DNA of 64,000 nt from Paenibacillus xylanexedens (lineage in GTDB: Bacteria; Bacillota; Bacilli; Paenibacillales; Paenibacillaceae), in NCBI RefSeq assembly GCF_001908275.1, contig NZ_CP018620.1, positions 1,116,001-1,180,000 on the forward strand. Reading direction: 5' to 3'. The notes under the pieces were generated by a model, which saw nothing but the letters and a program-made list of their open reading frames with translations, was not told where the DNA came from and made no database searches. Positions 10,864-46,887 of the stretch are shown here, piece after piece; position 1 is the first letter of the stretch, and each line of letters starts with the position of its first letter. The position numbers and the translations under genes were made by a program.

Positions 10864-15657
<4,794 letters not shown>

Positions 15658-16092: not shown

Positions 16093-16093
16093 T

Positions 16094-16169: not shown

Positions 16170-16172
16170 TAT

Positions 16173-16264: not shown

Positions 16265-16281
16265 GATAATTTTTTTAGCAA

Positions 16282-16353: not shown

Positions 16354-16359
16354 TAATAT

Positions 16360-16435: not shown

Positions 16436-16452
16436 TATAAACTCTATAACGA

Positions 16453-16526
<74 letters not shown>

Positions 16527-16553
16527 TTATACTTTCCTTTGAGAAAGTGATCT

Positions 16554-16631
16554 GGAACCGTGGTGTAGTTGGCCTAACATGCCTGCCTGTCACGCAGGAG
16601 ATCGCGGGTTCGAATCCCGTCGGTTCCGCCA
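16554..16631 (+). tRNA. tRNA-Asp(GTC)
   Basis: Acceptor GGAACCG/CGGTTCC, anticodon GTC at 16589-16591, CCA encoded. Confidence 0.96.
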
Positions 16632-16654
16632 TTTTTTAATTAAATATACACCGT

Positions 16655-16730
<76 letters not shown>

Positions 16731-16826
16731 TTTTTAGTATTTACATCTGAATTTGTGATAGAATGTATATTACAAGTAAAATTGTTAATACTAAGATTCT
16801 CTTAGTGGATGAATGGCTTACTCTAT

Positions 16827-16903
16827 GGCGGTCGTGGCGAAGTGGTTAACGCACCGGTTTGTGGATCCGGCATTCGGGGGTTCAATTCCCCTCGATCGCC
16901 CCA
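16827..16903 (+). tRNA. tRNA-His(GTG)
   Basis: Anticodon GTG at 16861-16863; extra 5' G (16827) opposite discriminator C, the His identity element; CCA encoded. Confidence 0.95.
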
Positions 16904-16914
16904 TGATTTTTTAA

Positions 16915-16989
16915 TGGGGATTAGCCAAGCGGTAAGGCAACGGACTTTGACTCCGTCATGCATAGGTTCAAATCCTATATCCCCAGCCA
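16915..16989 (+). tRNA. tRNA-Gln(TTG)
   Basis: Acceptor TGGGGAT/ATCCCCA, anticodon TTG at 16947-16949, CCA encoded. Confidence 0.96.
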
Positions 16990-16998
16990 TTTCATTAC

Positions 16999-17074
16999 GA
17001 GTCATTAGCTCAGTTGGTAGAGCACCTGACTTTTAATCAGGGTGTCGAAGGTTCGAGCCCTTCATGACTCACCA
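16999..17074 (+). tRNA. tRNA-Lys(TTT)
   Basis: Acceptor GAGTCAT/ATGACTC, anticodon TTT at 17032-17034, CCA encoded. Confidence 0.96.
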
Positions 17075-17083
17075 TTATATTTT

Positions 17084-17170
<87 letters not shown>

Positions 17171-17178
17171 TATGTTTT

Positions 17179-17253
17179 GCGGAAGTGGCTCAGCGGTAGA
17201 GCATCGCCTTGCCAAGGCGAGGGTCGCGGGTTCGATTCCCGTCTTCCGCTCCA
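17179..17253 (+). tRNA. tRNA-Gly(GCC)
   Basis: Acceptor GCGGAAG, anticodon GCC at 17211-17213, CCA encoded. Confidence 0.96.
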
Positions 17254-17259
17254 ATATTT

Positions 17260-17336
17260 GCGCCCTTAGCTCAGCTGGATAGAGCGTTTGACTACGAATC
17301 AAAAGGCCGGGAGTTCGAATCTCTCAGGGCGCGCCA
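17260..17336 (+). tRNA. tRNA-Arg(ACG)
   Basis: Acceptor GCGCCCT/AGGGCGC, anticodon ACG at 17294-17296 (A34 is expected to be edited to inosine), CCA encoded. Confidence 0.96.
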
Positions 17337-17352
17337 TTATTCTCATAAGTAT

Positions 17353-17426
17353 CGGGATGTAGCTCAGTTTGGTAGAGCACCTGGTTTGGGACCAGGGGGT
17401 CGCATGTTCAAATCGTGTCATCCCGA
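17353..17426 (+). tRNA. tRNA-Pro(TGG)
   Basis: Acceptor CGGGATG/CATCCCG, anticodon TGG at 17387-17389; CCA is not encoded. Confidence 0.95.
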
Positions 17427-17439
17427 TTTTTTTTATTTT

Positions 17440-17510
17440 GCGGGTGTAGTTCAATGGTAGAACTTTAGCCTTCCAAGCTAATAGCGTGGGTTCGATTCCC
17501 ATCACCCGCT
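17440..17510 (+). tRNA. tRNA-Gly(TCC)
   Basis: 71-nt tRNA, acceptor GCGGGTG/CACCCGC, anticodon TCC at 17472-17474; CCA is not encoded. Last tRNA of the operon. Confidence 0.95.
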
Positions 17511-31622: not shown

Positions 31623-31799
31623 TATGCACCTCGACTAATATTAGATCATTTTCTTAATTCCAAAATATCCCTACATAATATAAACGGTAAAAATGTAAAA
31701 ATGTTTCTCTTCTGATATCTAATTATCAATTGATGGAAGAAAACATGAGGTGTGATCGCAAATGGGATGAATCTCTCTCTTTTTATTTTCAATGATGTA

Positions 31800-31837
31800 A
31801 TTAAATTTCATATAATGTTTGACTTGTGAAATTTAAT
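31800..31837. promoter_or_regulatory. Candidate MurR operator O1
   Basis: Perfect inverted repeat: ATTAAATTTCA (31800-31810), 16 bases, TGAAATTTAAT (31827-31837). The anmK promoter -35 lies inside it. The same half-sites with the same 16-base spacing recur at 38197-38234. No ORF is seen elsewhere in 31623-31904. Confidence 0.65.
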
Positions 31838-31847
31838 ATCATATACT
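31819..31847 (+). promoter_or_regulatory. Sigma-A promoter of anmK-murR
   Basis: TTGACT, 17-base spacer, TATACT. The right operator arm lies in the spacer. Confidence 0.75.
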
Positions 31848-31904
31848 GGGTGAAATTATGGCAGGATGACGTGTTCATCGGGTCTTGCAGGAGGTTGGAA
31901 GTGG

Positions 31905-33134
31905 ATGGATACAGGCAGCTATCCGATGTGGGAGAAGTATCGTTTGAAGCAGGAGCATCTGGTCATCGGACTAATGTCAGGAACGTCACTTGATGGAACA
32001 GATGCGGCACTGGTGCGTATTCAAACCGATATGAGCGGGGCATTACAGCAGATCGAGCTGGTTGATTTTGTCTGTGTGCCGTATTCGAATGGATTGAGAG
32101 ACGTACTGATCCGGTTATGTTCACCGGGGACGTCGCGTGTCGACGAGCTGACAGCCGCACATTTTGGTGTATCGGAGTGGTATGCGCATAGCGTTACGGA
32201 ACTGATGCAGTCTGCCGGTATCTCAACGCAGCAGGTGGATATGATTAGCATGCATGGACAGACGGTATGGCATGCTCCTGTAGCATCTGCATTTCCAGGG
32301 CCAACGGGAGCAAGTATTGATGTGGTATCGACATTGCAGATCGGTGAATGTGCTGTCGTTCGAGAACGGACAGGACTGCCAGTGATTGGCAACCTTCGGG
32401 CAAGGGATATGGCCGCTGGTGGGGAAGGTGCCCCGCTTACGCCTTATGCGGATGCTCTGATGTTTCGTAGCCCGACGGAAGGACGGCTGGTGCAGAATAT
32501 CGGTGGCATTGGCAATGTGACGGTGCTTCCCTCCGAGTCATCTACCGAAGGTATTTCGGCATTTGATACGGGACCAGGGAATATGGTGATGGACGCCATT
32601 GTGCGGCAGGCGACGGATGGACGGAAGCATTATGATCCGAATGGAAGTATTGCCGCACAGGGGAAGGTCGATCAGGGTCTGGTAGACCTGTGTTTGGAGG
32701 ATGAGTATTTCAAAAGACTTCCACCGAAAAGTACTGGGCGAGAAGTATATGGAGCCGCGTATGCAGTGAGACTGATGGAGATGGCCGCAAAGCGTTCCTT
32801 ATCTCTTGAAGATACGCTGGCTACTGCCACCTGCCTGACCGCGGAGACCATCGTGCGTGCTGTGAAGGATTTTATCCTGCCCAAGGTGCAAATATCGGCC
32901 ATGCTCGCGTGCGGTGGTGGCACTTCCAATGCCACGTTAATGGAGATGATCCGTCAGAGACTACCGAAGGATATCCGTTTGGAGCGAACGGCAGATCATG
33001 GTATACCCGATGATGCTCGGGAAGCCATTGGATTTGCTTTACTTGGCCATGAGGCACTTATGGGAAGAACCAATACACTTCCGGCCGTAACCGGCGCAAA
33101 ACACGCCGTAATCTCGGGCAATCTCACACTTTAG
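31905..33134 (+). CDS. anmK: Anhydro-N-acetylmuramic acid kinase
   Basis: 409 residues from the ATG at 31905 (AGGAGG ten bases upstream); an ATG at 31866 precedes that site. The ASKHA-type phosphate loop is LVIGLMSGTSLDGTDAALV near residue 19, with MHGQTVWHAP, GGIGNVTVLP, FDTGPGNMVMD (catalytic Asp region) and ACGGGTSNATLM. It opens the 1,6-anhydro ring of anhydroMurNAc and phosphorylates it to MurNAc-6-phosphate, the substrate of MurQ. The regulator gene follows after 116 bases. AnmK in a Gram-positive points to anhydro-sugar salvage as well as MurNAc use. Confidence 0.93.
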   Translation: MDTGSYPMWEKYRLKQEHLVIGLMSGTSLDGTDAALVRIQTDMSGALQQIELVDFVCVPYSNGLRDVLIRLCSPGTSRVDELTAAHFGVSEWYAHSVTELMQSAGISTQQVDMISMHGQTVWHAPVASAFPGPTGASIDVVSTLQIGECAVVRERTGLPVIGNLRARDMAAGGEGAPLTPYADALMFRSPTEGRLVQNIGGIGNVTVLPSESSTEGISAFDTGPGNMVMDAIVRQATDGRKHYDPNGSIAAQGKVDQGLVDLCLEDEYFKRLPPKSTGREVYGAAYAVRLMEMAAKRSLSLEDTLATATCLTAETIVRAVKDFILPKVQISAMLACGGGTSNATLMEMIRQRLPKDIRLERTADHGIPDDAREAIGFALLGHEALMGRTNTLPAVTGAKHAVISGNLTL

Positions 33135-33250
33135 TGAGACCTGAATTTAATATGAGTTCAGTTATGGAAGGGCGAGGAATTCGATTAGACGCGAGTGGAA
33201 TTATAAGATAAAATGCTTGTACATGAATGCAGTACGGAAAGGAGGAGCGA

Positions 33251-34099
33251 ATGGAAGGCATGAAAGGTGGACTTGTACGTTTACGCGCATTAATGGATGA
33301 CTTGACCCCGTCCGAACGGAAGATCGGAGCTTATATTCTCGATCACCCGCAAGAAACTGTTCAATCCTCGGTGGCCCAGTTGTCTGAACGGAGTGGAGGT
33401 AGCCCAGCTGCCATTATCCGTCTCTGCAAATCACTAGGTGTAACGGGTTTTCAGGAGCTGAAGCTGAAGATTGCCGGAGATTTGCAGACGAGTGAGCCAT
33501 ATCAATATACGGAGATTCGTCCCCAGGACTCCATGGAGAGCATTATTCAGCATGTGTCCGCAAACAATATTCAGTCGGTGAAGGATACGGTTCATATTCT
33601 GGACCCACGTCTGGTGGAAAAAGCCGTGGACGTGCTTCATCAGGCGAAACGGATCTTTTTCTATGGAGTAGGGGCCTCCAACCTGATTGCGCTGGATGCA
33701 CATTACAAGTTCATGCGAATCAATCGCACAAGCTTTTCGTTCGCCGATCCGCATATGCAGATTTCGTCCGCAACGACGCTTCGTGAGGATGATGCGGTGG
33801 TATGTATCTCGTATTCAGGGGAGACGTCGAACGTAATCTCCTGTCTCAAGCATGCTCATGATGGCGGTGCAGCGACAATCAGCATTACCAAGTGGGGCAG
33901 CAATACACTCAGTAGTATGGCGGATGTGCCCCTGATGATTACTTCCACCGAAAGTGATATCCGAAGCGGAGCAACTTCGTCACGCATTGCACAGCTGAAC
34001 GTGATCGACATTTTGTATCTGGCGATTGCCAGCCGCGACTACAACCAGTCGGTGGAATATTTGGAGAAGAGCCGACAGGCTATACTGGAACATAAATGA
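33251..34099 (+). CDS. murR: MurR/RpiR family transcriptional regulator
   Basis: 282 residues from the ATG at 33251 behind GGAAAGGAGGAG. N-terminal HTH_6 domain (LTPSERKIGAYILDHPQ, SSVAQLSERSGGSPAAIIR) and a SIS sugar-phosphate domain at ~120-250 (FFYGVGASNLIA, VCISYSGETSNVI, ATSSRIAQLNVID). RpiR proteins sense sugar phosphates; MurR senses MurNAc-6-phosphate, which AnmK makes and MurQ consumes. Two matching inverted repeats at the anmK and murQ/importer promoters are its likely targets. The gene symbol rests on neighbours. Confidence 0.85.
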   Translation: MEGMKGGLVRLRALMDDLTPSERKIGAYILDHPQETVQSSVAQLSERSGGSPAAIIRLCKSLGVTGFQELKLKIAGDLQTSEPYQYTEIRPQDSMESIIQHVSANNIQSVKDTVHILDPRLVEKAVDVLHQAKRIFFYGVGASNLIALDAHYKFMRINRTSFSFADPHMQISSATTLREDDAVVCISYSGETSNVISCLKHAHDGGAATISITKWGSNTLSSMADVPLMITSTESDIRSGATSSRIAQLNVIDILYLAIASRDYNQSVEYLEKSRQAILEHK

Positions 34100-34546
34100 A
34101 TCATACCCATATTGATCTTTTTTTGATTGTAGAGGATATTGAAAGTTATGAGGCTGTCACTAATATGTCTGTAGTCTTTTCTGAGGCTAAAGATAAGTAA
34201 TAGAGGCCAAGCTTTGTGCTTCATTTAGGAGCAACATTTGCATCAAGCAATGAAGTTAAGAGGGGAAACATAATATCCCATATTAGAGTATGGTTATGCT
34301 AGACACATTGTGCACTTGCTCAAGATTCTCCAATGCGAGGTATATGATTGTCGTAGCCCATGGCGGGCCTTAAGATTCAATAAAAAGGCTGAACCTGGAG
34401 TGAAAATAACATTCCGGGTTCAGCCTGGCCGATAAAGCTACTCGATGAAGAAAAAAACTTCACGATGAGAAGCATTGCACCAACTTAGGTATTGACTAGA
34501 CATTCCGTTCTGGTTTTTAGAGTTTGAATTAACTGCCTGGTATATA
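34100..34546. other. Intergenic region downstream of murR
   Basis: No supported ORF. It contains an imperfect palindrome around CCATA/TATGG (~34279-34293) and the minus-strand terminator at 34386. No decayed gene was recognised. Confidence 0.4.
34381..34426 (-). terminator. Terminator of the AT-rich gene pair
   Basis: AGGCTGAACC and GGTTCAGCCT form a 10-bp stem; on the minus strand it is followed by TTTTTA. Confidence 0.75.
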
Positions 34547-34759
34547 CTATATTAACCCAGACCTAATCCATTTTCTTATTCTGTAGAAACCAAATAAGAT
34601 GACCGCTAACATTAGGAGTGATAATAGTAAAAAAGCCATGTTACTTACCATACCTAACTCACCCCAATGTAAAACAGTGTAAATTATTATAGAAATATCA
34701 AGAATTACTAAAAATATAAGAGGAATAATCCAAGCGAGACGGAGTTTGTAATTTTTCAA
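34547..34759 (-). CDS. Small two-helix membrane protein
   Basis: 70 residues, TTG start seven bases after GGGAGGGA, which makes it credible despite its size. Two hydrophobic helices (~9-30 and ~38-60), basic ends (MKNYKLR, YRIRKWIRSG). I do not recognise a family. It sits 33 bases behind a secreted protein gene on the same strand, with the same low G+C. Small two-helix proteins in this position are often immunity or accessory proteins, but that is only a suggestion. Confidence 0.7.
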   Translation of the reverse strand: MKNYKLRLAWIIPLIFLVILDISIIIYTVLHWGELGMVSNMAFLLLSLLMLAVILFGFYRIRKWIRSGLI

Positions 34760-34792
34760 GATTCTATCCCTCCCGACATTATATATTACTTC

Positions 34793-35899
34793 TTAGTATC
34801 CATTTACAATTGAAAAACTGGAGTTAGGCCAATACTTCCCTCCTCTAACGTTCATTTCCATTGCGTTGTTTTGATATTGAGCTGCTGTTCTACTTAAATC
34901 CATTCTTGATTTTGTTGCATATGCTGAAGAAGTTAATCCCGCAAAAGTTGTTAGAGCACCTACATAGTTTGAAACAATTGCAACCCAGCCAGCAGGGCCA
35001 GAGGCAAATCCGACTACCATTATAACAAGACCTGCTAATGCAGAAATCCAACCTACTGTTTCTGGCCAAAGTGCTGTGTCCATATATTGTATTACATACT
35101 TCTCATAATTGTTGATATAACCTTTGTAGAGTACCAGTGAACTTGCCTGTGTAGAATTATTTTTGGTTGTGCCCGTGTACTTCAAATATTTATTTGGTGC
35201 ACCGGGGCTTAATGATTGTACAACAAATGCACCAGTATCTAGTGTATGGTTGTAATAGTTATCGTATGCACCAGCCCGTTCAGTTGTTGAAGCGAGGGCC
35301 ATGGCTTCTTCAACTTCTGAAATATATGATTTCAGTTCTGTTATTTGTGCTTTAGTGATACCTTGAGAGCTGGTAGGTGTAGCGTTAGAAGATAAATTCG
35401 ACGTTAAACTCTCCACTTTTTTTCGAACATTTACCTCTTCCTTAGCAGTTAAACTCTCCTGAATGAATTGGGTTTTTTCTTGAGGATCAGTATTAAGTTT
35501 AAACTGCACAGCTTTAGTTTCCACCAGTGGAGTTAAAAATGTTTCAGTTTGTTTTAACTCAGTAGCTTCTCCAGTGTTCCAATTGTTTTTGAATTCTTCG
35601 TATACAACACTAGATTCTTTATAAGTAGCGTTAGTATCATAATAGTCTTCAATTACACTTAATTTAGTTTCAATTTCTAGACCATTATCTGTGATTTCAG
35701 TTATTGCATTTACATTTTTATAACCTGTTGGTTCATAAAAACCCTCTTCATTTTGGGTGTCTGACAAAGTTTCAATCGTATAAGATTCTACGTTCACTAC
35801 AGTATTATCAGAAGTTTTCGCGTGGGAAGCAGGAGCTGTTAAAGATACAAAAAGTAAAGTTGCCGCAAGAAAAGTACTTAGAGTCTTTTTAATCAACAT
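34793..35899 (-). CDS. Secreted protein of unknown function with hydrophobic C-terminal region
   Basis: 368 residues from the ATG at 35899, five bases after GGAGG. Signal peptide ending at PASHAKT. The middle (30-~230) is acidic, Thr/Asn-rich and without cysteines. Residues ~280-335 hold two glycine-rich hydrophobic segments (ISALAGLVIMVVGFASGP, VGALTTFAGLTSSAYA) like a membrane hairpin. I know no family for it. Base composition is much more AT-rich than the flanking genes, suggesting recent acquisition. With the small membrane protein behind it, a membrane-active toxin or bacteriocin-type precursor is possible but unproven. Confidence 0.7.
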   Translation of the reverse strand: MLIKKTLSTFLAATLLFVSLTAPASHAKTSDNTVVNVESYTIETLSDTQNEEGFYEPTGYKNVNAITEITDNGLEIETKLSVIEDYYDTNATYKESSVVYEEFKNNWNTGEATELKQTETFLTPLVETKAVQFKLNTDPQEKTQFIQESLTAKEEVNVRKKVESLTSNLSSNATPTSSQGITKAQITELKSYISEVEEAMALASTTERAGAYDNYYNHTLDTGAFVVQSLSPGAPNKYLKYTGTTKNNSTQASSLVLYKGYINNYEKYVIQYMDTALWPETVGWISALAGLVIMVVGFASGPAGWVAIVSNYVGALTTFAGLTSSAYATKSRMDLSRTAAQYQNNAMEMNVRGGKYWPNSSFSIVNGY

Positions 35900-36192
35900 T
35901 ACAACCTCCAATATTCTTTTTTAAAATAGACAGACAACTAAAAAACCATATCAATGCGAACGAATCCAATTTATAACCAATAATCACCTCTTTCTACCAT
36001 ATATAAAAGAATTCTACCATAATTTATAATAAATATATAGATTTATATCGTTCATATTCTATTTCATTTGAATAAAGATATAGATGATTTGGGAAAAGAC
36101 GGGCAAAAACCAGATTTATTGTATGTCCGCGCTGGTGGGGATTTTTTTAATAGATTGAACATACTCGTGCGACATAAAAAAATCAAAAAAAG
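35900..36192. other. AT-rich intergenic region
   Basis: Very AT-rich stretch between the secreted-protein gene and the murQ terminator. It must hold the promoter of the secreted protein; TATATA-type elements are frequent, but no single promoter stands out. No ORF. Confidence 0.4.
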
Positions 36193-36213
36193 GGCCCAGA
36201 CCAATGTCGGGCT
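36185..36213 (-). terminator. Terminator of the murK-murQ operon
   Basis: On the minus strand GAGCCCGAC pairs imperfectly with GTCTGGGCCC, followed by seven Ts. Confidence 0.65.
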
Positions 36214-36241
36214 CCTTCGTGTTTAACCATAGCCACCTGCG

Positions 36242-37144
36242 TTATTTACCGGATATAGCATTGCGGACAAATCCGTCAGCCAGATCAAGCCTGTGCTGGG
36301 CTTCTGTTACGTCCACGCCTGCCATCAGCATGACGATTGCCGTTTTTACATGACCGTCTGCACCGGTAAAAGCCTCTTCAATATCCGTTTCATTTGCTCC
36401 GGTTGCCAGATGGATCATGCGTTTGGCCCGATGGACAAGCTTCTCGTTCGAAGGGTTCAGATCAACCATGAAATTACGGTAAACCTTGCCCAGACGAATC
36501 ATGGCGGTAGTGGTGAGCATATTCAGAATCATTTTCTGGGCGCTGCCTGCCTTCATACGTGTTGAACCCATGACAACCTCTGGGCCGACAACAGCCTCAA
36601 TGCTTACATCAGCCAACAGAGTCATCGGCGTGCCTGCATTATTACTCAGGCTGATCACCGTAGCCCCGATCTCCTTGGCGTGTCTCATCGCACCGAGCAC
36701 ATACGGCGTTCGTCCACTGGCTGCAATGCCAACCACGACATCGTTTTTGTCTAAGCCATGTTCATCAAGGTCCGCAGCTCCCAACTCCTCATTATCTTCA
36801 GCACCTTCAACCGGGTCCTTCACTGCCCGGAATCCCCCTGCAATAATACCCTGCACCATGGAGGGCGGGGTTCCGTAGGTAGGCGGGCATTCCGAAGCGT
36901 CAAGTATTCCTAATCGTCCACTGGTACCTGCGCCTACATAAAAAAGCCTCCCGCCAGACTGAAACGCCTCCAAGATCCGATCCGCAGCTTGAGCAATGGC
37001 CGGAATGAGGGGCTGAATGAGCTCCGCAATCCGTTGATCTTCCTTATTAATTAGCTCCATAATTTCTGCCGAAGGCAATTCATCTATATGATCCGTTAGT
37101 GGATTGGGTTGTTCTGTTATTAGTGAATTCAGCATGTGATTCAT
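36242..37144 (-). CDS. murQ: N-acetylmuramic acid 6-phosphate etherase
   Basis: 300 residues from the ATG at 37144, eight bases after AGAAGGAGG; an upstream in-frame ATG (37180) overlaps the kinase gene. SIS domain with LFYVGAGTSGRLGILDASE, CPPTYGTPP (the catalytic Glu lies in DASECPP), ASGRTPYVLGA and STRMKAGSAQKMILN; a small UBA-like helical end follows. It removes lactate from MurNAc-6-phosphate to give GlcNAc-6-phosphate. Co-transcribed with the kinase upstream. Confidence 0.95.
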   Translation of the reverse strand: MNHMLNSLITEQPNPLTDHIDELPSAEIMELINKEDQRIAELIQPLIPAIAQAADRILEAFQSGGRLFYVGAGTSGRLGILDASECPPTYGTPPSMVQGIIAGGFRAVKDPVEGAEDNEELGAADLDEHGLDKNDVVVGIAASGRTPYVLGAMRHAKEIGATVISLSNNAGTPMTLLADVSIEAVVGPEVVMGSTRMKAGSAQKMILNMLTTTAMIRLGKVYRNFMVDLNPSNEKLVHRAKRMIHLATGANETDIEEAFTGADGHVKTAIVMLMAGVDVTEAQHRLDLADGFVRNAISGK

Positions 37145-37166
37145 CTGTATGGCCTCCTTCTCTCTT

Positions 37167-38129
37167 TTAAAATGATTCATTCAGGGAACAGCGTTTTTTT
37201 GCCAGTTGTGCTGCGCCAACCGCTGGAGCGGGGCCATCTTCACGATATACCAAGTCCAACTCTCCATAATATCCCGATAACTTCTGAATAAATGTATTTC
37301 GGAAAAGTGTAGCGTATCGAAACAGTGATCCGGACAGGACAACCGGAGTGGATGCAAATTCGGGATGACGGGCAATCAGCGCCTTGGCGGTATCCGCCAA
37401 TTGTGAGGCTTCGTCAATGATCAGTGCGCGTGCGGCCTCATCTCCGAGTTCAGCAGCTTCTATAGCTAGGCGGGCGATGGATGCGGTCTCGGTTTTGCCC
37501 CAATCCGTCTGATACACTCGCGTCTTTAGCTCCGATATATCCCGAAGGTTCAGATTCTTTAGAAGAAGCGGGGTTAAACAGGTTGGAGGAAGAACACCGT
37601 CATAACTCTGCATAACCACTTGGAGTGCACGCTGCCCAATACGATAGCCGCTCCCCTCATCTCCGAGCAGATGACCCCAGCCTCCTGCACGGTATCGCTC
37701 GCCTTCCCGCGTAAATCCGTACACGATGGAACCTGTTCCAGAGATACACAATACACCGTGCGTATGTCCGAGAGAGGCCATCAGAGCAATCTCTCCTTCG
37801 GATACAACCCAGACTGGACAGTCTTCTGATACTTGTCGATTACGACTCTTCATATAGTTATTTACTACTTCGGCTATAAGTTGCCGTTCTTGGATCGCGT
37901 CTACACCTGACATACCAAGACATATACCCTCACAATTTGTCGATAAATCACTGATTAGATTAAATAGCTGTTCCAGCACTCGTTGCAGTTCGGAAATGGC
38001 CTGTTCAGTTGATACGCTGTGAGGATTCGTGGGACCGCCGCTGAGTCGGGCAAGAATTTCACCAGATTCAGAAATGATTGCTGCATCAGTATTGGTACCG
38101 CCTCCATCTACACCTACATATACTCGCAA
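37167..38129 (-). CDS. murK: BadF/BcrA-type amino-sugar kinase (MurNAc/GlcNAc kinase)
   Basis: 320 residues, TTG start six bases after GAGGTGA. ASKHA fold: VGVDGGGTNTDAAII (phosphate 1), GICLGMSGVD, LCISGTGSIVYGF (phosphate 2), GGWGHLLGDEGSGYRIG, and VVLSGSLFR (adenosine). It matches the BadF/BadG/BcrA/BcrD family that contains GlcNAc kinases and clostridial MurK. Between murQ and an importer it would phosphorylate incoming MurNAc or GlcNAc. The gene symbol is an inference from context. Confidence 0.85.
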   Translation of the reverse strand: MRVYVGVDGGGTNTDAAIISESGEILARLSGGPTNPHSVSTEQAISELQRVLEQLFNLISDLSTNCEGICLGMSGVDAIQERQLIAEVVNNYMKSRNRQVSEDCPVWVVSEGEIALMASLGHTHGVLCISGTGSIVYGFTREGERYRAGGWGHLLGDEGSGYRIGQRALQVVMQSYDGVLPPTCLTPLLLKNLNLRDISELKTRVYQTDWGKTETASIARLAIEAAELGDEAARALIIDEASQLADTAKALIARHPEFASTPVVLSGSLFRYATLFRNTFIQKLSGYYGELDLVYREDGPAPAVGAAQLAKKRCSLNESF

Positions 38130-38167
38130 AGTGGCTCACCTCGCTTGCTTGGGTTTTCTTTTTACAT

Positions 38168-38196
38168 AGTATAGTTGCATGAAAAGAAAAAGTAAA
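38168..38196 (-). promoter_or_regulatory. Sigma-A promoter of murK-murQ
   Basis: On the minus strand TTTACT, 17-base spacer, TATACT. Its -35 abuts the left arm of operator O2. Confidence 0.65.
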
Positions 38197-38234
38197 ATTA
38201 AATTTTATAATAAAAAATAATGTTGAATTTTTAT
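38197..38234. promoter_or_regulatory. Candidate MurR operator O2 between divergent promoters
   Basis: ATTAAATTTTA (38197-38207), exactly 16 bases, TGAATTTTTAT (38224-38234). The half-sites resemble those of O1 at the anmK promoter with identical spacing. The site lies between the murK promoter and the importer promoter and touches both -35 elements. Confidence 0.6.
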
Positions 38235-38251
38235 TTTATAACTCATATAAT
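38223..38251 (+). promoter_or_regulatory. Sigma-A promoter of the sugar importer operon
   Basis: TTGAAT, 17-base spacer, perfect TATAAT, ~230 bases before the binding-protein gene. The long leader (38260-38480) shows no ORF or clear RNA structure. Confidence 0.65.
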
Positions 38252-38485
38252 GAATTCAATCTACAATTTTGGAAGGAATTAATACTGTTAATGTCAATTA
38301 AGTTGACGTTAATATTGCATTTAAGAGATTTAGCCTGCGACTGGCAGGCCCAATCTACAGGGGAGGTGCTTTTCCTTACTGCCGCGTGTATAGGTGGATG
38401 GCGTTTGAAGGCCGAACGATCACAAAGGGGTAGCATGGTTAGGCAATGAAAGAATCGGATGATGACATGCAAAGGAGATGAAGGG

Positions 38486-39838
38486 ATGAAAAAGAAGGGT
38501 CTAGTATGGGCAATGTTGTTGATGATGGTTTTGGTTACTGCCTGTGGGAATAGCGGAGGTGCTACTTCGGATGACCCGAATGCCGATGATACGGTAACGG
38601 TATGGACCTATCCTGTACATGGCACATATGAAGATGAACTGAAGGATCTAATCTCTGATTTCAATAAGGAACACCCGAACATTACCGTGAAGACGGAAAT
38701 GCTCTCCTGGGCGGAAGGCCCCAAAAAATTCGATGTCGCACTGAATGCCGGGAACCCGCCGGATCTGTATTTCCATAGTGTAGATGGTACGTATGTGAAT
38801 ACCGGGCTGGGGCTTGAACTGGACAGCTACCTGACACCTGAGATCAAGGACGACTACCTGCCAGGTACGCTTGAGTTAGGCCAGATTCAGGGGAAACAGT
38901 ATGGACTTCCTTTATATCAATTCCAATGGGCTTGGGGTGGTAACAAACGCATTCTGGATGAAGCGGGCATTGACTGGAAATCGATTCAGCAAAATGGCTG
39001 GACCTGGTCCGAATTCAACGATGCCGCGGCCAAGTTGACCAAAACGCTCGATGGCGGGGCTAAGCAGTATGCGTTGGTTACGGATGGTACTTCGCTCGAC
39101 TTCATTGAAATGTTATCCCGGAACAACGGGATGATTGATGTTCTTGATAAAGACGGCACGTTCCAATGGAATGATGGTCGCATTCTGGACACCCTCTCTT
39201 TTATCAAAAACCTAATGGATCAAGGGTATATGCCGAAGGAAACGGCGGCTCTCGCTCCAGCGAAACGGACGGATATGTTCTACGCGGGGGAAACGGCGAT
39301 CATCTCCAAAGCGATTCCTTATTATGATGTGATGATTCAGAACCGCAACAAGGACATCGATGATGGCAAGGTGCAGGGAGAGAAGATTGATTTTGTCCTG
39401 TTGCCTGTACCGCATAATGATGATCAACCTGCGGCCACAACAATGGGCGGCGAAGGGTATGTAGCCTTCAAACAGAAGAAGGACAAAGGTGAGCAACATG
39501 CCAAAAATACGTTCTTGGTGATGGAGGCGCTTAGCGGTGCCAAAGCAGGGAACTCGGCCAATGAACTGGCGCTCCCATTCGTAAGACAATCCCAAGTGGA
39601 ACTGTTTAAAGGAAAAGAGCTTGGTCAACCGGATAATCTGGCTGCTGCGAAAGTCATGGCAGAGGATATCGCTATGCCGGTTGTACTGGAACTGGATATC
39701 GACAAAGCATCTCAGCAAAAACAATTCAAGGAACAAGTTGTGAAGCCAAACATCCAGGCGCTGTTCTCGGGAGAAAAATCACCGGAGCAGATCGCAGAAG
39801 ACTTCAAGAACAAAGGCCAGCAGATGTTTGGACAATAA
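38486..39838 (+). CDS. Sugar ABC transporter substrate-binding lipoprotein (family 1)
   Basis: 450 residues from the ATG at 38486 (AAAGGAG upstream); an ATG/ATG frame from 38459 precedes that site. Lipobox LVTAC, then an acidic linker. SBP_bac_1 fold: TVWTYPVHGTYEDELKDLI, VALNAGNPPDLYFHSVDG, QFQWAWGGNKRILDEAGI and FYAGETAIISK. Probably binds MurNAc, a MurNAc-GlcNAc disaccharide or GlcNAc, inferred from the divergent murK-murQ genes and the namZ-nagZ genes downstream. Confidence 0.9.
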   Translation: MKKKGLVWAMLLMMVLVTACGNSGGATSDDPNADDTVTVWTYPVHGTYEDELKDLISDFNKEHPNITVKTEMLSWAEGPKKFDVALNAGNPPDLYFHSVDGTYVNTGLGLELDSYLTPEIKDDYLPGTLELGQIQGKQYGLPLYQFQWAWGGNKRILDEAGIDWKSIQQNGWTWSEFNDAAAKLTKTLDGGAKQYALVTDGTSLDFIEMLSRNNGMIDVLDKDGTFQWNDGRILDTLSFIKNLMDQGYMPKETAALAPAKRTDMFYAGETAIISKAIPYYDVMIQNRNKDIDDGKVQGEKIDFVLLPVPHNDDQPAATTMGGEGYVAFKQKKDKGEQHAKNTFLVMEALSGAKAGNSANELALPFVRQSQVELFKGKELGQPDNLAAAKVMAEDIAMPVVLELDIDKASQQKQFKEQVVKPNIQALFSGEKSPEQIAEDFKNKGQQMFGQ

Positions 39839-39893
39839 CTCGGACCATCAAACATAACGCAAAACCACATTGATTAGGAGAGGAGGATTCGCC

Positions 39894-40817
39894 ATGCAGA
39901 CCGCCCTTGCGCCAAAACCGTCAGTGCCCCGGACTTCCCGGGTTGCCCGGTTTTGGCGAGACTACGGGTGGGCGTATTTGTTCATTTTGGCGCCTGTCCT
40001 GCTGTTTCTCATTTTTACGCTGTATCCAGTACTTACGGCTCTAATTATGAGCTTCCAGAAATACAACATTATGAATTCGACGTGGGTTGGATTGGACAAC
40101 TATGAGCGACTGGTGAAAGATGAGACGTTCTGGAAGTCGATCAAAAATACGGTGATCTTCACTGTTGGCACAGTCCCGGTCAATATTCTCATTACATTTG
40201 TACTTTCCTATTTCATCTATCAGATGAAAAGTAAATGGCAGACTTTTTTCAAAGCTACCATGTATCTGCCTGCGGTAGCCTCCGGGGTAACCATCTCCAT
40301 TGTATGGCTGGCCATCTTTGATCCTACCGATTCGGGGCTGCTCAACCGTTTTCTCGGCTTGTTTGGCCTTGATCCGGTGATCTGGCTGGGCCAGTCGGGA
40401 ACGGCACTTTTTTCCCTCATTCTAATGAACTGGCTCGGATCACACGGAGCGGGCATTATTCTGTATCTGGCAGCCATGGGCGGTATTCCGAAATCGCTGT
40501 ACGAAGCGGCGGATATTGATCATGCCAGCGGCTGGACCCAGTTCAGCAAGATTACATGGCCGCTACTCAAACCAACGACTCTATATCTGCTCGTCACGGG
40601 TGTTATTACATCCTTCCAGGTGTTTATCTCGGTATATCTGATGACACAGGGTGGACCAAACTTTGCGACAACTACAATCGCGTATCTGATCTACGAGACG
40701 GCATTTAAATTCTATGAATTCGGATTAGCTTCGGCACAGTCGTTCGTATTGGCGATTATCATCATAGTCATCTCCGTCATACAGTTCAAATATTTCTCCA
40801 GCGATATCGAGTATTAA
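39894..40817 (+). CDS. Sugar ABC transporter permease (MalF/UgpA type)
   Basis: 307 residues from the ATG at 39894 behind GAGAGGAGGATT; a TTG at 39870 is in frame but lies before it. Six membrane helices and the EAA loop SLYEAADIDHASGWTQFSKI near residue 200. It pairs with the next permease to form the importer channel. Confidence 0.92.
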   Translation: MQTALAPKPSVPRTSRVARFWRDYGWAYLFILAPVLLFLIFTLYPVLTALIMSFQKYNIMNSTWVGLDNYERLVKDETFWKSIKNTVIFTVGTVPVNILITFVLSYFIYQMKSKWQTFFKATMYLPAVASGVTISIVWLAIFDPTDSGLLNRFLGLFGLDPVIWLGQSGTALFSLILMNWLGSHGAGIILYLAAMGGIPKSLYEAADIDHASGWTQFSKITWPLLKPTTLYLLVTGVITSFQVFISVYLMTQGGPNFATTTIAYLIYETAFKFYEFGLASAQSFVLAIIIIVISVIQFKYFSSDIEY

Positions 40818-40854
40818 GCACGTTGCATTAAGCATCCGGGGGTGAATAAAATTC

Positions 40855-41688
40855 ATGAAATCAACACAGAAAAAGATACTGCTCGTTGTTGCATCCATTC
40901 TGCTGGTGGTCTGGGCGCTGGTGACGGTTATTCCGATGTATTGGATGCTCGTTGGTTCGGTGCAGGATAGCGCAATGTCGGCTTCGTTTAAACCACAGAT
41001 GATTCCGGAGCAATTGTCATTATCACCATATGAGCGCTTTTTTGCCAAAACCGATGCCTGGCGCTGGCTGTACAACTCGCTGCTCATCTCGATCATTCTG
41101 ACCGTAACCAATGTATTCTTCGCCTCCCTGGCGGGATATGCATTTGCCAAACTGAAATTTCCGGGTAGTCAGGCGGTATTCTGGACCCTGCTCGGGACCA
41201 TGATGATTCCGGCACAGGTGACGCTAATTCCTTTGTATATTCTGATGGTCAATGTATTTGACCTGGGGGATACCTATACAGCTATTATTCTGCCTGCTGC
41301 CGTCAGCGTAGGGAACATATTCCTGATGAAACAGTTCATGTCCACGCTGCCCACATCACTGATCCATGCGGCGCGTATCGATGCATGCAGCGAGTTCGGC
41401 ATCTTCTGGAAAGTCATTCTGCCGATGGCAAAGCCGGGAATCGCGGTGCTGGCAATTTTCACATTTGTAGCTTCGTGGAATGAATTTTTCTGGCCGTTCC
41501 TCATTACCAATTCCAACGAGATGCGGACCATTCAGGTAGGGCTGGCCTCGTTTGTATTTGCCGAATCAACGGATTTCGGCGCAATGATGGCCGGGGCTAC
41601 CATAGGTGCTCTGCCCATGATCATTCTGTTCTTCTCACTGCAACGTTACTTCCTGCAGGGCATTACGATCGGTGCGGTAAAAGGTTAA
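40855..41688 (+). CDS. Sugar ABC transporter permease (MalG/UgpE type)
   Basis: 277 residues, ATG after GGGGGTGA. Six membrane helices and the EAA loop TSLIHAARIDACSEFGIFWK near residue 165. Second half of the importer channel, 37 bases behind the first permease. Confidence 0.92.
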   Translation: MKSTQKKILLVVASILLVVWALVTVIPMYWMLVGSVQDSAMSASFKPQMIPEQLSLSPYERFFAKTDAWRWLYNSLLISIILTVTNVFFASLAGYAFAKLKFPGSQAVFWTLLGTMMIPAQVTLIPLYILMVNVFDLGDTYTAIILPAAVSVGNIFLMKQFMSTLPTSLIHAARIDACSEFGIFWKVILPMAKPGIAVLAIFTFVASWNEFFWPFLITNSNEMRTIQVGLASFVFAESTDFGAMMAGATIGALPMIILFFSLQRYFLQGITIGAVKG

Positions 41689-41731
41689 CTTTTAGTTCAG
41701 GACAAGCGACAACGTAAAGGGGGATCTACCT

Positions 41732-42841
41732 ATGGCACGCGTGGAGTTTCGCCAAGTGCGCAAAGAATTCAAAGACGATCATAAAGGGACGTTCACGGCT
41801 GTGGCCGGCTCGGACTTTGTTATAGAAGATAAGGAATTCGTAGTGTTTGTGGGTCCTTCGGGCTGTGGCAAGACAACATCACTGCGGATGATTGCCGGAC
41901 TTGAAAAGCAAACGAGCGGTGATATTGTGATCGGTGACCGGCTTGTTAACGATCTGCATCCGAAGGATCGGGATATCGCGATGGTGTTTCAGGATTATGC
42001 ACTTTATCCGCATATGACCATCCGTGAGAATCTTTCCTTTGGCCTGAAAAATCTGAAAAAGCCAAAGTCCTATATTGATGAACAGGTGCAGAATGCGGCC
42101 TCCATTCTTGGACTGGAAGCGATGCTGGAGCGCAAACCACGCGAGCTGTCTGGTGGTCAGCGTCAGCGTGTGGCGGTGGGACGGGCGATCGTCCGTGATC
42201 CGCAGGTGTTTTTATTCGACGAACCACTGTCCAATCTGGATGCCAAGTTGCGGGTGCAGATGCGGGTGGAGTTGGGAGAGCTTCATAAACGTCTCGGTGC
42301 CACGATTGTGTACGTGACGCATGATCAGGTAGAAGCCATGACACTTGGGGAACGCATCGTGGTCATGAATCATGGAGATATTCAGCAGGTGGCTTCACCA
42401 AAAGAACTGTATGCGAGTCCGCGGAATATGTTTGTTGCCGGATTTATCGGTTCCCCGGCGATGAATTTCATTGATGCACGGATTGAAGGCACGCAGGTTG
42501 TCATCGAGGGAGCATCATTCACCTTGCCAGCAGATGTACTCGCTCGTCTTAAGAGTCATCAAGGCAAGCCGGTAATTATGGGGCTGCGTCCAGAGCATAT
42601 TTTTGGTGAGGATGTTGCTCCGAATATCCCGACAGACCACATGCTGCAGGCGCGAGTTCAGGTTGTAGAACATCTGGGCTCCGAGAATTTGGTGTATTTC
42701 CATTCCGGTACCCGTACCGTTACGGCTAAAGTTCATCCGGAAACACATGCTTATGTAGGTATGGACAAAAATTTTGTACTGGACCTGCGTAAGGCGCACT
42801 TTTTTGATCCAGAGACGGAGCTTGCGATTGGACGGGAGTAG
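41732..42841 (+). CDS. Sugar ABC transporter ATP-binding protein (MsmX/UgpC type)
   Basis: 369 residues, ATG after AAAGGGGGAT. Walker A GPSGCGKTTSLRM, Q-loop VFQDYALYPHMT, signature LSGGQRQR, Walker B VFLFDEPLSNLD, H-loop YVTHDQVEAM; C-terminal MalK-like OB domain (GLRPEHIFGED). Many Paenibacillus sugar importers borrow a shared ATPase, so having its own gene here is notable. Last of the importer genes; a repeat-rich gap follows. Confidence 0.92.
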   Translation: MARVEFRQVRKEFKDDHKGTFTAVAGSDFVIEDKEFVVFVGPSGCGKTTSLRMIAGLEKQTSGDIVIGDRLVNDLHPKDRDIAMVFQDYALYPHMTIRENLSFGLKNLKKPKSYIDEQVQNAASILGLEAMLERKPRELSGGQRQRVAVGRAIVRDPQVFLFDEPLSNLDAKLRVQMRVELGELHKRLGATIVYVTHDQVEAMTLGERIVVMNHGDIQQVASPKELYASPRNMFVAGFIGSPAMNFIDARIEGTQVVIEGASFTLPADVLARLKSHQGKPVIMGLRPEHIFGEDVAPNIPTDHMLQARVQVVEHLGSENLVYFHSGTRTVTAKVHPETHAYVGMDKNFVLDLRKAHFFDPETELAIGRE

Positions 42842-43230: not shown

Positions 43231-43941
43231 ATGCGTAAGCTGAGTGAAGTATTGATCAAGTCGGGTGCGGAAATCTATCGGGATATTATTTCGGTGGCCT
43301 TGTACAGTGTCGTTAGTTCCATCGTATTGGTTCCCATTCTGATGTTTGCTCCGCTGCCGATCGCTATACTGCTTCTGGCCTTGATATATATGCCCATCCT
43401 GTTCGGGGTCTGTTATGCCGTACATCACAGATTGAAACGTAAGGAACGGCGTAATGGACTTAAGGATATCTGGGTCGGAACATTGAAGGGAGTAATCCCT
43501 GGAGTGTCGGTGGGGGTGCTTTTCGCGGTGCTTGGCTTCATTCTATGGTCAACCTGGTGGTATTACGGCGGACAGGGTGGAATTACAGGCACAGCAGTGG
43601 GTGTATTCCAGACGTTCTTTGTTCTCATGGCGCTGATGTCACAGTTCTATACCTGGCAGCTTGTTTTACAAAAAAACATGGGCATCGTTCAGGCGATGGG
43701 GGAAAGTGTAAAGCTGTTCTTCCGTCACCCGGGGTACACGATGGGCGCTTGTTTTCAGGCCATGTGCCTGACGGCTCTGCTGATGCTGACTGTCGTTGGT
43801 TTCGGAGCGTTGTTTGGAGGTATGTTTGCCGTCTATCAGCATAAGGTTGCTCTTAATGTGTTGGAGCCTGCAGAAGAGCCTGTCGTAACAGGCGGTAATG
43901 ATCACCAGCATACAGGCTGGGTCAGCCAGGGGAATGTGTGA
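43231..43941 (+). CDS. Polytopic membrane protein of unknown function
   Basis: 236 residues from the ATG at 43231 behind GAAGGGAG; an ATG at 43195 lies within the repeat. Five or six hydrophobic segments (VVSSIVLVPILMFAPLPIA, IPGVSVGVLFAVLGFILW, FQTFFVLMALMSQFYTW, TALLMLTVVGFGALFGG) separated by a basic loop RLKRKERRNG, and a polar His/Gln-rich tail. The layout resembles YesL/DUF624-type proteins found with sugar importers, but I cannot confirm it. Its stop overlaps the namZ start (TGATG), so it is coupled to namZ. Confidence 0.75.
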   Translation: MRKLSEVLIKSGAEIYRDIISVALYSVVSSIVLVPILMFAPLPIAILLLALIYMPILFGVCYAVHHRLKRKERRNGLKDIWVGTLKGVIPGVSVGVLFAVLGFILWSTWWYYGGQGGITGTAVGVFQTFFVLMALMSQFYTWQLVLQKNMGIVQAMGESVKLFFRHPGYTMGACFQAMCLTALLMLTVVGFGALFGGMFAVYQHKVALNVLEPAEEPVVTGGNDHQHTGWVSQGNV

Positions 43942-45137
43942 TGGGTCAGTTGAATGGGACCGAGCAGATCCCGGCTGTAAAAACGGGAGTTGATCTTCTG
44001 TCCAGAGGGTTATCGCATCCATGGATAACAGGTAATCGAATCGGTCTAATTACAAACCCGACTGGTATTACAGCGGATTTTGTATCGACAATAGATGTGT
44101 GCGCCGGACTGGCTAATGCCGAGCTTACAGCGCTCTATGCCTGTGAGCACGGACTGGATGGAGAGCTTCAGGCGGGTGTCAGATTCGGAGACATGCTTCA
44201 TCCACGTCTGGACATTCCGGTGTTCAGCCTATATGGAGATTACAAGAAACCTACGCCTGCAATGCTGGCTGGAGTGGATACAGTGCTGTTCGACATTCAG
44301 GATGTGGGTATCCGTTATTACACGTATGCCTCAACCTTGTTCCATATGATGGAGGTCTGCGCTGGAGCGGGCAAACGCATGCTGATTCTGGACCGTCCCA
44401 ATCCGCTGGGTGGAAACGTTGTGGAAGGCGGTGTGCTGAACGCGGGGTATGAATCACTCGTTGGCGCTTGGCGTGTACCTGTACGTACCGGATTGACGGT
44501 AGGTGAACTCGCCCTGATGGTCAACAGCGAGATGGATGTACCTTGCGAATTGGACGTGGTTGCCATGAAAGGATGGCAGCGCTCCATGGAGTATGCGGAT
44601 TGTGGGCTTCCCTGGATGTTACCCTCTCCCAATATGCCCACGCTGGACAGTGTGCGGGTATATGCGGGTACGTGCCTGTTCGAAGGTACTAATGTATCGG
44701 AGGGCAGGGGCACGACCCGCCCATTCGAGTGGATTGGGGCCCCCTGGGTTGAGGGTGAACGTTTGGCGGAACGATTTCGGGAATACAAACTGGAAGGTGT
44801 GCATGTGCATCCAGTGTACATGTCCCCAACATTCTCCAAACATGCAGGTGAGCTGTGTGGTGGCGTAAGGATTTTTGTAACGGACAGCCGGAAATTCCGG
44901 GCGGTAGAGACAGGGTTGGTGCTTTTGCATGAACTGGTTTCACTCTATCCGGAGCAATTCTGCTGGCTGGAGCCACCAGAGCCGGGTTCAAGGTACTTTA
45001 TCGACCTGCTGGCAGGGGGTAAGGAAGTCAGGGAAACGATTCATGACCGCGCGGAATTCATTCGTTTAATGGATGCGTGGAATGTACAGGCAGCGGAATG
45101 GAAGGAGCGGCGAAAGCCGTTTTTGTTATATGAATGA
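43941..45137 (+). CDS. namZ: Exo-beta-N-acetylmuramidase NamZ (DUF1343)
   Basis: 398 residues from the ATG at 43941 (AGGGGA seven bases upstream). The DUF1343 pattern is clear: LITNPTGIT, YACEHGLDGELQAGV, VLFDIQDVGIRYYTY, LDRPNPLGG, LPWMLPSPNMPTLDS, and EGRGTTRPFEWIGAPW. B. subtilis NamZ (YbbC) releases terminal MurNAc from peptidoglycan fragments. I see no signal peptide, so it may act in the cytoplasm on imported MurNAc-GlcNAc, unlike the secreted B. subtilis enzyme. nagZ follows. Confidence 0.92.
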   Translation: MGQLNGTEQIPAVKTGVDLLSRGLSHPWITGNRIGLITNPTGITADFVSTIDVCAGLANAELTALYACEHGLDGELQAGVRFGDMLHPRLDIPVFSLYGDYKKPTPAMLAGVDTVLFDIQDVGIRYYTYASTLFHMMEVCAGAGKRMLILDRPNPLGGNVVEGGVLNAGYESLVGAWRVPVRTGLTVGELALMVNSEMDVPCELDVVAMKGWQRSMEYADCGLPWMLPSPNMPTLDSVRVYAGTCLFEGTNVSEGRGTTRPFEWIGAPWVEGERLAERFREYKLEGVHVHPVYMSPTFSKHAGELCGGVRIFVTDSRKFRAVETGLVLLHELVSLYPEQFCWLEPPEPGSRYFIDLLAGGKEVRETIHDRAEFIRLMDAWNVQAAEWKERRKPFLLYE

Positions 45138-45168
45138 ATGGATGTTTGTTATCGGGGGGAGGCATGAA

Positions 45169-46887
45169 ATGAGTGGGCCAAAAGAGTTATACCATTCGAG
45201 GCTGAAACAGATGACCTTGCGTGAGAAAGTCGGGCAAATGCTGCTTTGTGGCTTTCATGGCACTGAAGCTGTTGGTGATGTGGAACCCTTTCTCCGAAAG
45301 TATCCAATTGGTGGCGTAATCTACTTTGCGCGCAACGTTGAGTCGCCAGAGCAGGTAGAGCGGTTATCGTCAGGGTTACAACAGATTGCCAAAAGCAGTG
45401 GTAATGTGCCGCTCTGGATATCCATTGATCAGGAGGGCGGCATGGTTGCTCGAATTACCGAAGGGATAACCTTGATGCCTGGACCAATGGCCATTGCCGC
45501 TGCCGGTTCCATTGACGATGCATATCAGGCGGCATATATCAGTGGATTGGAGCTGAAGTCCATGGGCATTAACATGAACTTTGCTCCGGTATTGGATGTG
45601 AACAATAACGCGGCCAATCCGGTCATCGGTGTACGATCATTTGGCGAATCTCCACAATCGGTTGCAGAATATGGGGCCAGAACCATTGCGGGAATACAGG
45701 ACGCTGGAATTGCAGCGACAGCCAAGCACTTCCCGGGGCATGGGGATACGGATACCGATTCCCATCTGGACCTCCCGATCATCACTCATGATCGTGAACG
45801 GGTAGAGCGCCTGGAGTTGATTCCATTCCGAGCCGCTATCGCCGAAGGTGTCGATGCCATGATGTCGGCGCATATTTATTTTCCTGCACTGGAGCCAGAG
45901 CGTCTGCCCGTAACGCTATCGCAAACCGTATTAAGCGGTCTGCTTCGCCAGGAACTGGGTTATGAGGGCATGATCGTGACAGATTGCATGGAGATGGATG
46001 CCATTGCCGTGAACTATGGCACTGTCGATGCAGCCGTAATGGCGGTAGAGGCCGGGGCAGATCTGGTGTTAATTAGCCATACGGCTAAGCTTCAAGCAGA
46101 GGCATTTGAAGCATTGTTAGCAGCTGTGAGGAGCGGGCGGATCAGCGAGAGACGTATTGATGAGTCGGTGATTCGCTTACTGATGTACAAGGCGAAGCGT
46201 GGTTTACTGGAGAGTGAAACGGGTGGTGCAGGTGATGAGGAAGTGAATATTGCAGTATCGAATGCATCATTGCCAGAGGCATTCAACGCTCCTGCTCTAT
46301 CCAGTCCGTCGGAGCGCAACAGTTCATTACACCAAGAGGTTGCCCGCCGTATTAGCGAGAATAGTATCACACTGGTGCGCGATCAGCTGAATATGCTGCC
46401 TTTAAAGCCGGAACGCACGTTGGTCATAACGATTGCCACGTCCGTGACGACAATTGCTGACGAACATCTGAATCAGACATTCACCTTGGGATCAGCCTTA
46501 TCCATTTATGGTCTGGATGTTGTCGATCTGATGGTCACGCCCGAAGAAGTCGCCATTCGTTCCGCACGTCTGCTTCAGGCAGCGGAAGCAGATGACATTC
46601 GGCAGATTGTGGTGGGGACCTACAATGCGGGAAGCTCCTCCGGCGATCCACAGTGCAGGCTGATTGGTTGGATACAGCAATTGGGCAAACCGCTGGCTGT
46701 TGTGGCATTGCGAAGCCCCTATGATCTGCTGGCGCTTCCGGATGCCCAGGTCTATGTAGCGGCTTACGAGAGCCGGCCACTTGCCATGGATAGCGTCGCT
46801 CAGGCGTTGATGGGGCACATTCCTTTTGCGGGGAAACTTCCTGTAACATTAAAGCAGACAGATGATGAAAGAGCGGATGTCTCCTAG
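45169..46887 (+). CDS. nagZ: Beta-N-acetylglucosaminidase NagZ (GH3)
   Basis: 572 residues from the ATG at 45169, six bases after GGGGGGAGG; the longer frame from 45073 overlaps namZ. GH3 TIM barrel with SIDQEGGMVARI, FAPVLDVN, and the catalytic His-Asp loop AKHFPGHGDTDTDSH typical of NagZ; the nucleophile is in MIVTDCMEMDAI. A C-terminal alpha/beta domain (~380-570) is present, as in B. subtilis NagZ. No signal peptide. It removes GlcNAc from the non-reducing end, alternating with NamZ on muropeptide sugar chains. Confidence 0.93.
   Translation: MSGPKELYHSRLKQMTLREKVGQMLLCGFHGTEAVGDVEPFLRKYPIGGVIYFARNVESPEQVERLSSGLQQIAKSSGNVPLWISIDQEGGMVARITEGITLMPGPMAIAAAGSIDDAYQAAYISGLELKSMGINMNFAPVLDVNNNAANPVIGVRSFGESPQSVAEYGARTIAGIQDAGIAATAKHFPGHGDTDTDSHLDLPIITHDRERVERLELIPFRAAIAEGVDAMMSAHIYFPALEPERLPVTLSQTVLSGLLRQELGYEGMIVTDCMEMDAIAVNYGTVDAAVMAVEAGADLVLISHTAKLQAEAFEALLAAVRSGRISERRIDESVIRLLMYKAKRGLLESETGGAGDEEVNIAVSNASLPEAFNAPALSSPSERNSSLHQEVARRISENSITLVRDQLNMLPLKPERTLVITIATSVTTIADEHLNQTFTLGSALSIYGLDVVDLMVTPEEVAIRSARLLQAAEADDIRQIVVGTYNAGSSSGDPQCRLIGWIQQLGKPLAVVALRSPYDLLALPDAQVYVAAYESRPLAMDSVAQALMGHIPFAGKLPVTLKQTDDERADVS

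Follow-up and report, generated by a model that had tools for sequence, protein, structure and literature searches.

In a 64,000-nucleotide stretch of Paenibacillus xylanexedens DNA (assembly GCF_001908275.1, contig NZ_CP018620.1, positions 1,116,001 to 1,180,000 of the forward strand; the whole stretch is hereafter termed the window), two conserved sites lie at the promoters of genes for the salvage of N-acetylmuramic acid (MurNAc). Both are very probably operators of MurR, the RpiR-family product of the gene at 33227-34099, and we infer that this regulator binds them. The assignment is based on the architecture of the sites, their conservation, their overlap with promoters and the way in which they occur together with murQ and MurR. 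This kind of regulon is already known; the new part consists of the architecture of the sites, their spread and the extra candidate members.

Architecture of the two sites

A previous sequence-only reading of the window had reported two inverted repeats, each with a 16-base spacer (N16), between positions 31800 and 38251, and both were found exactly as it had described them: site 1 (31800-31837) reads ATTAAATTTCA-N16-TGAAATTTAAT, a perfect 11-bp inverted repeat, and site 2 (38197-38234) reads ATTAAATTTTA-N16-TGAATTTTTAT. Judged by sequence, each of these arms forms the core of a longer dyad of 15 bp, TRAAAT-N3-ATTTYA. A site thus looks less like a single inverted repeat than like two such dyads whose centres are separated by 31 bp, or three helical turns. 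All four dyads, to none of which a strand is assigned, fit a 15-bp palindrome of 6-3-6 geometry: the upstream (TGTAATTAAATTTCA, 31796-31810) and downstream (TGAAATTTAATATCA, 31827-31841) dyads of site 1 each keep five of the six self-complementary pairs, the left dyad of site 2 (TAAAATTAAATTTTA, 38193-38207) is a perfect palindrome (6/6), and the right dyad (TGAATTTTTATTTTA, 38224-38238) keeps four of six. Throughout the 7.1-Mb genome the double site at up to two mismatches is confined to the mur locus, and up to three mismatches yielded the two loci together with one 3-mismatch place (C1:5370623). Three or more matches to the pattern, which was fitted to the two sites, occurred in none of 100 shuffles of the window. 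A scan of the genome with a single dyad was unspecific (154 matches versus 123 in a reversed control), and it is therefore the pairing that carries information; the use of that scan to find further regulon members was dropped on the same counts.

The sequence-only reading had also placed the repeats in contact with three promoters, and this was borne out: all three were recovered among the sigma-70-type matches, and it is these three that touch the sites. The anmK-murR promoter (TTGACT-17-TATACT, 31819-31847, plus strand, 10/12 match) has one dyad of site 1 just 5' of its -35 hexamer and the other within, and filling, its -35/-10 spacer. Each dyad of site 2 overlaps a -35 hexamer, the left one that of the murK-murQ promoter (TTTACT-17-TATACT, 38168-38196, minus strand, read from 38196 to 38168, 9/12) and the right one that of the importer promoter (TTGAAT-17-TATAAT, 38223-38251, plus strand, 10/12). 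Since the promoter scan returned 14 sigma-70-type matches in total versus 13.7 in shuffles, these promoters rest on position and conservation and not on their count: in the alignments described below, the -35 and -10 hexamers of the anmK-murR promoter are found in 20 of 20 sequences, and the other two promoters are kept in 19 of 19. An RNA hairpin or attenuator at site 1 was ruled out by its position upstream of and within the promoter, because it would not be transcribed from there; no Rfam family reached its gathering score near site 1.

Conservation in relatives

Examination of the corresponding upstream regions in other Paenibacillus, the check that the sequence-only reading had proposed, revealed that site 1 is kept in all 20 sequences compared (the window and 19 named relatives) and site 2 in all 19 that span the region (the window and 18 relatives), the contig of L007 ending before it. 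The search expressions included parts of the sites, which are thus identical by selection, and L007 at site 2 was the only loss. Site 1 was aligned without gaps and anchored on the -35 stretch, such that the first eight bases of its downstream dyad belong to the search anchor and are contained in all 20 sequences. Mean identity was 0.511, a random-like level, in the 36 bases upstream, 0.987 at 31796-31810, 0.725 in the spacer and 0.94 at 31827-31841, and footprint-type conservation was likewise observed at site 2 in its 19 sequences. The left edge of this conservation is sharp and lies outside the reported arm, at the TGTA of 31796-31799, which does not vary in any of the 20 sequences. The spacing at site 2 differs in L014 (P. 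pabuli), where a count along the sequence gives 33 bp between the dyads instead of 31.

Co-occurrence with murQ and MurR

Of 74 genomes of the genus, 43 gave a murQ match (E <= 1e-50) and 41 an anmK match (E <= 1e-40). The N16 pair at up to two mismatches was present in 38 of the 43 murQ genomes versus 0 of the 31 without murQ (Fisher p 6e-16, kinship ignored), and a reversed-pattern control at the same threshold gave no match in any of the 74. By coordinates, 68 of the 70 places at which the pair occurs in the genus are at a mur locus, the two others being G293:C1:6705547 and G317:C1:5172144. The five murQ genomes that lack an N16 match carry a pair at 32-33 bp: at 32 bp without mismatch in G158, G304 and G305; at 32 bp with two mismatches in G311, before a murQ of the phosphotransferase system (PTS) type, the contig with the other murQ of this genome beginning just before murK; and at 33 bp in G240, where there are only 3-mismatch pairs, again before a PTS-type murQ. 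The other murQ of G240 has no pair, and no murR within about 10 kb. A comparison with MurR itself covered 46 genus genomes (E <= 1e-70, at most eight candidates scored per genome, so that a MurR may be missed); among the 28 with MurR, the pair was present in all at three mismatches and in 27 at two. The MurR regulon proposed from the window is thereby supported, both by conserved sites in relatives and by a presence that tracks murQ across the genus.

Spread and spacing of the paired dyads

Beyond the genus, 295 genomes of the family were searched with the pattern and without protein information, giving at least 43 places at up to one mismatch. Of the 43 places listed, 31 are at murQ, murK, anmK or namZ, PTS-type clusters included, and two (L107 and L108) stand beside a murR relative (44-45% identity) and importer genes, with no murQ within the stretch examined. 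The pair also adjoins MurR proteins of only 34-46% identity. At three mismatches the family pattern was too loose for counting genomes (127 of 295 genomes with N16 and 97 with N17, the reversed control also matching in many genomes), and two mismatches within the genus were used in its place. The 21 of 21 obtained for a set of 'family distant' loci is by construction, as these were chosen for the pattern, and was not used as evidence. A further comparison covered 40 of the 42 MurR matches at greater distance, from 38 genomes in which the gene order is rearranged. Many murK upstream regions in this set read TGTAAAATAAAATTTYA...TRAAATTTTATTTYA, each arm being a 15-bp palindrome TRAAAT-N3-ATTTYA. 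Of 50 dyad pairs spaced by 15-60 bp, 26 are at 31 (9), 32 (13) or 33 bp (4), compared with none at 31-33 bp in five shuffles, and a pair at these distances occurs in 23 of the 40 loci. Other spacing groups were seen at 18 bp (6 pairs) and at 26-27 bp (8 pairs, all in loci with a main pair at 31-32 bp and sharing bases with it). The dyads 18 bp apart, a pairing distinct from that at three turns, belong to mur clusters with altered gene order, in which they lie towards namZ (L060, L064, L070, L073, L074 and L080). An earlier scan with the reported arms and a variable spacer had returned mainly spacers of 16, 17 and 22.

Outside the family, 88 murQ upstream regions from the class were assembled (28 left from 30 after two own-family loci were dropped, and 60 chosen among the matches listed). 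A pair at 31-33 bp was present in 10 of these (mean 0.02 and maximum 1 in 50 shuffles) and a pair at 31-35 bp in 15, with spacings of 27, 28, 32 (2), 33 (8), 34 (4) and 35 bp, i.e. 15 of 17 at 32-35 bp.

These results bear on the alternative that each site is one inverted repeat with an N16 spacer, in which each 11-mer is a half-site for one subunit. The 11-mers of site 1 do form a perfect inverted repeat; however, two dyads will always resemble one, because each is nearly palindromic, and the invariant TGTA lies outside the left arm, which in other genera extends, like its partner, to a near-perfect 15-bp palindrome. A relative within the RpiR family, RccR of Pseudomonas, binds 15-bp palindromes at aceE (TGTAGT-N3-ACTACA) that share the 6-3-6 geometry of the window dyads, although it also binds a 28-bp site with the same half-sites further apart; it differs in consensus, in its ligand (2-keto-3-deoxy-6-phosphogluconate, KDPG) and in the 68 bp between its aceE sites (PMC5489143, as given in the available part of that paper). 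One inverted repeat per site thus appears improbable. Of the claims in the sequence-only reading, the two 11-mers and the 16-base spacing hold for the window. The functional unit, however, looks like two paired 15-bp dyads, and the spacing is not fixed at 16: even among members of the genus, the distance between dyad centres ranges over 31-33 bp.

Weighing the assignment to MurR

Several observations count against the assignment of these sites to MurR. The compared genomes are related and their counts are not independent. Within the genus, the pair was present at three mismatches in 7 of 18 genomes without a MurR match (0 of 18 at two), and no site at up to four mismatches was seen at the second, PTS-type murQ of G006. 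No pair at 31-33 bp was found in 17 of the 40 distant MurR loci, five of which have an 18-bp pair and four of which show no other mur gene near murR, and outside the family the strict model left 78 of the 88 regions without a pair at 31-33 bp and 73 without one at 31-35 bp. The intergenic region between murR and murQ of Escherichia coli holds no dyad pair (the best dyad has three mismatches and the best pair eight). The window protein scores below the cut-off of NF012026, the equivalog of E. coli MurR (118.4 versus 408 bits), and 'MurR' is therefore a name by context. Ten of the 43 listed family places are by other genes. Finally, the scan of the site neighbourhoods covered relatives of the genes found in the window and a small number of others, which leaves room for another regulator.

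The room so left could be taken up by, for example, the RpiR paralog seen beside nagA-nagB-like genes in L002 (named from reading of open reading frames, not from a family search), if it acted on the mur genes. This paralog is 38-39% identical to MurR and has a similar recognition helix. However, a murR relative stands beside most of the examined mur-cluster sites across gene orders (other regulators were not searched for there), and in the window genome the double site is restricted to the mur locus, as noted above; we consider operation by such a regulator very unlikely.

A further possibility is a chance similarity in AT-rich promoter DNA, or a compositional feature such as UP elements; the sequence-only reading had named AT-richness as its main ground for caution. 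When the AT-rich region upstream of anmK was shuffled 2000 times, 12 of the shuffles produced a perfect 11-bp inverted repeat with a spacer of 4-30 bases. Site 1 alone is therefore only moderately improbable, and the whole window contains five such repeats. The evidential weight for the sites comes from comparison across genomes, where conservation climbs sharply at the dyad edge, the reversed-pattern control is empty in the 74 genomes and the preferred dyad spacing persists in different gene orders. Chance or composition is accordingly the least credible of the explanations considered, with hardly any probability left to it, and MurR operators are retained as the preferred reading.

Genes of the mur locus

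The anmK gene (31866-33134, plus strand), encoding anhydro-N-acetylmuramic acid kinase (PF03702; NF007148 over cut-off), has its first ATG at 31866, but the more probable start is 31905, which is preceded by GGAGG at 31890-31894. The next gene on the same strand, murR (33227-34099), encodes a protein with an N-terminal HTH_6 domain (PF01418, 71.9 bits, cut-off 28.3) and a C-terminal SIS domain (PF01380, 86.5 bits, cut-off 25), the domains that define an RpiR-family regulator, and it stands beside murQ and other MurNAc genes as a MurR gene would. On the minus strand follow murQ (MurNAc-6-phosphate etherase, 36242-37180, TIGR00274 over cut-off) and a sugar kinase gene (37167-38129; BcrAD_BadFG fold, NF046058 not reached), which we take to be murK from context. 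These two are divergent from the genes of an ATP-binding cassette (ABC) importer (38459-42841, plus strand), comprising a solute-binding lipoprotein, which probably starts at 38486, two permeases and an ATPase. Downstream of the importer are a protein without Pfam or NCBIfam match, the exo-beta-N-acetylmuramidase gene namZ (43938-45137, plus strand; PF07075 and PF20732) and a nagZ-like gene of glycoside hydrolase family 3 (45073-46887, plus strand; PF00933).

The importer leader contains a second conserved inverted repeat, TTAATGTCAA-N5-TTGACGTTAA (38288-38312, about 37-61 bases past the -10), whose arms covary in some relatives (e.g. L017), with one T-G pair constant; a leader hairpin and a second operator are both candidate roles for it. 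Between murR and murQ, the window has about 2 kb of extra sequence (34100-36180). Judged by spacing, the named relatives in which both sites are present lack this segment, whereas G296 has it at 99%; it includes an open reading frame of 372 amino acids on the minus strand (34796-35911) whose product looks secreted and is without Pfam or NCBIfam match. In G295 and G296 (L226 and L227) anmK is split into two frames, as are murR and murQ in G296, and these may be assembly errors. Elsewhere in the window, 10865-17510 carries an rRNA operon and, after it, 17 tRNA genes in a row.

Comparison with known systems

MurR of E. coli is, like the regulator proposed here, an RpiR-family repressor of MurNAc catabolism encoded beside murQ. 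It shares 27% identity with the window protein over the aligned part, and the E. coli locus has a PTS in place of the anmK and ABC importer of the window. Jaeger and Mayer reportedly found in 2008 that E. coli MurR, which is said to be tetrameric, binds two adjacent inverted repeats, and a paired operator may thus be shared. In Bacillus subtilis, MurR (YbbH) is encoded in murQRP-amiE-nagZ-ybbC, which serves the same pathway as the window locus; ybbC is presumably namZ. In contrast to the window, B. subtilis has a PTS importer and a single operon, with anmK not among the six genes given in the available part of PMC5061867. MurR was described there as a negative regulator of PmurQ, whose activity, measured with a lacZ fusion, rises upon murR deletion, the nature of this regulation being described as not known in 2018 (PMC6148471, available part). 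HexR of Pseudomonas belongs to the RpiR family, as does the window regulator. MurR is listed among the regulons reconstructed for lactic acid bacteria in RegPrecise (according to the part of PMC3616900 available), which may already hold an equivalent Bacilli motif; no earlier description of a paired MurR operator was found in titles and abstract openings, a search that did not extend to RegPrecise itself.

Candidate regulon members at the cell surface

Six of the ten family places beside other genes are in three genomes of one genus. There the pair either precedes the gene of a GHL10 hydrolase that carries S-layer domains or separates a PGA_cap gene from that of a NAGPA-phosphatase-SLH protein (contexts assigned by Pfam on one genome and by similarity on the other two). 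Another is upstream of a GHL10-SLH gene in another genus, two adjoin a protein of beta-lactamase fold (in L100 the opposite flank holds an amylase) and one is by a SpoIID-like protein. We take E. coli DigH to be a member of the GHL10 family, a name absent from the text of the paper on this enzyme. On the basis of L097, L098, L099 and L116, the GHL10-SLH proteins (two genera) and the NAGPA-metallophosphatase-SLH protein (one genus) are candidate regulon members for digestion of the wall from outside. DigH is a hydrolase of denuded glycans, according to the available part of PMC12288456.

Proposed regulation and significance

Given a spacing of 31 bp, or about three turns, both dyads of a site would lie on the same face of the helix and be bound by two MurR dimers, which probably associate into a tetramer, and since the dyads of site 2 overlap both -35 boxes, one MurR complex there would shut both divergent promoters. 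Without MurNAc-6-phosphate, MurR would repress the kinases, the etherase, the importer, NamZ, NagZ and itself, assuming a single transcript for the genes behind the importer. AnmK and MurK would make MurNAc-6-phosphate, which on build-up would bind the SIS domain as the presumed ligand and release MurR from the DNA.

A broader proposal, which we advance tentatively and at rather less than even confidence, is that dyads paired at a distance of about three turns (31-34 bp) constitute an ancient and broadly conserved MurR operator in the Bacilli, read by a tetramer and indifferent to ABC or PTS import and to gene order. In some genera of the Paenibacillaceae it may have been recruited before S-layer-anchored GHL10 glycan hydrolases, a NAGPA-phosphatase surface protein and SpoIID-like enzymes, which would tie the sensing of MurNAc to digestion of denuded peptidoglycan outside the cell. 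For MurNAc salvage in Gram-positive bacteria, the paired dyads would represent a precise, phase-locked two-dyad operator that is open to testing, and its search pattern is sufficiently specific for nominating members of the regulon, surface enzymes included. Because spacings of 31, 32, 33 and 34 bp occur naturally, both helical phasing and binding by a tetramer can be tested directly.

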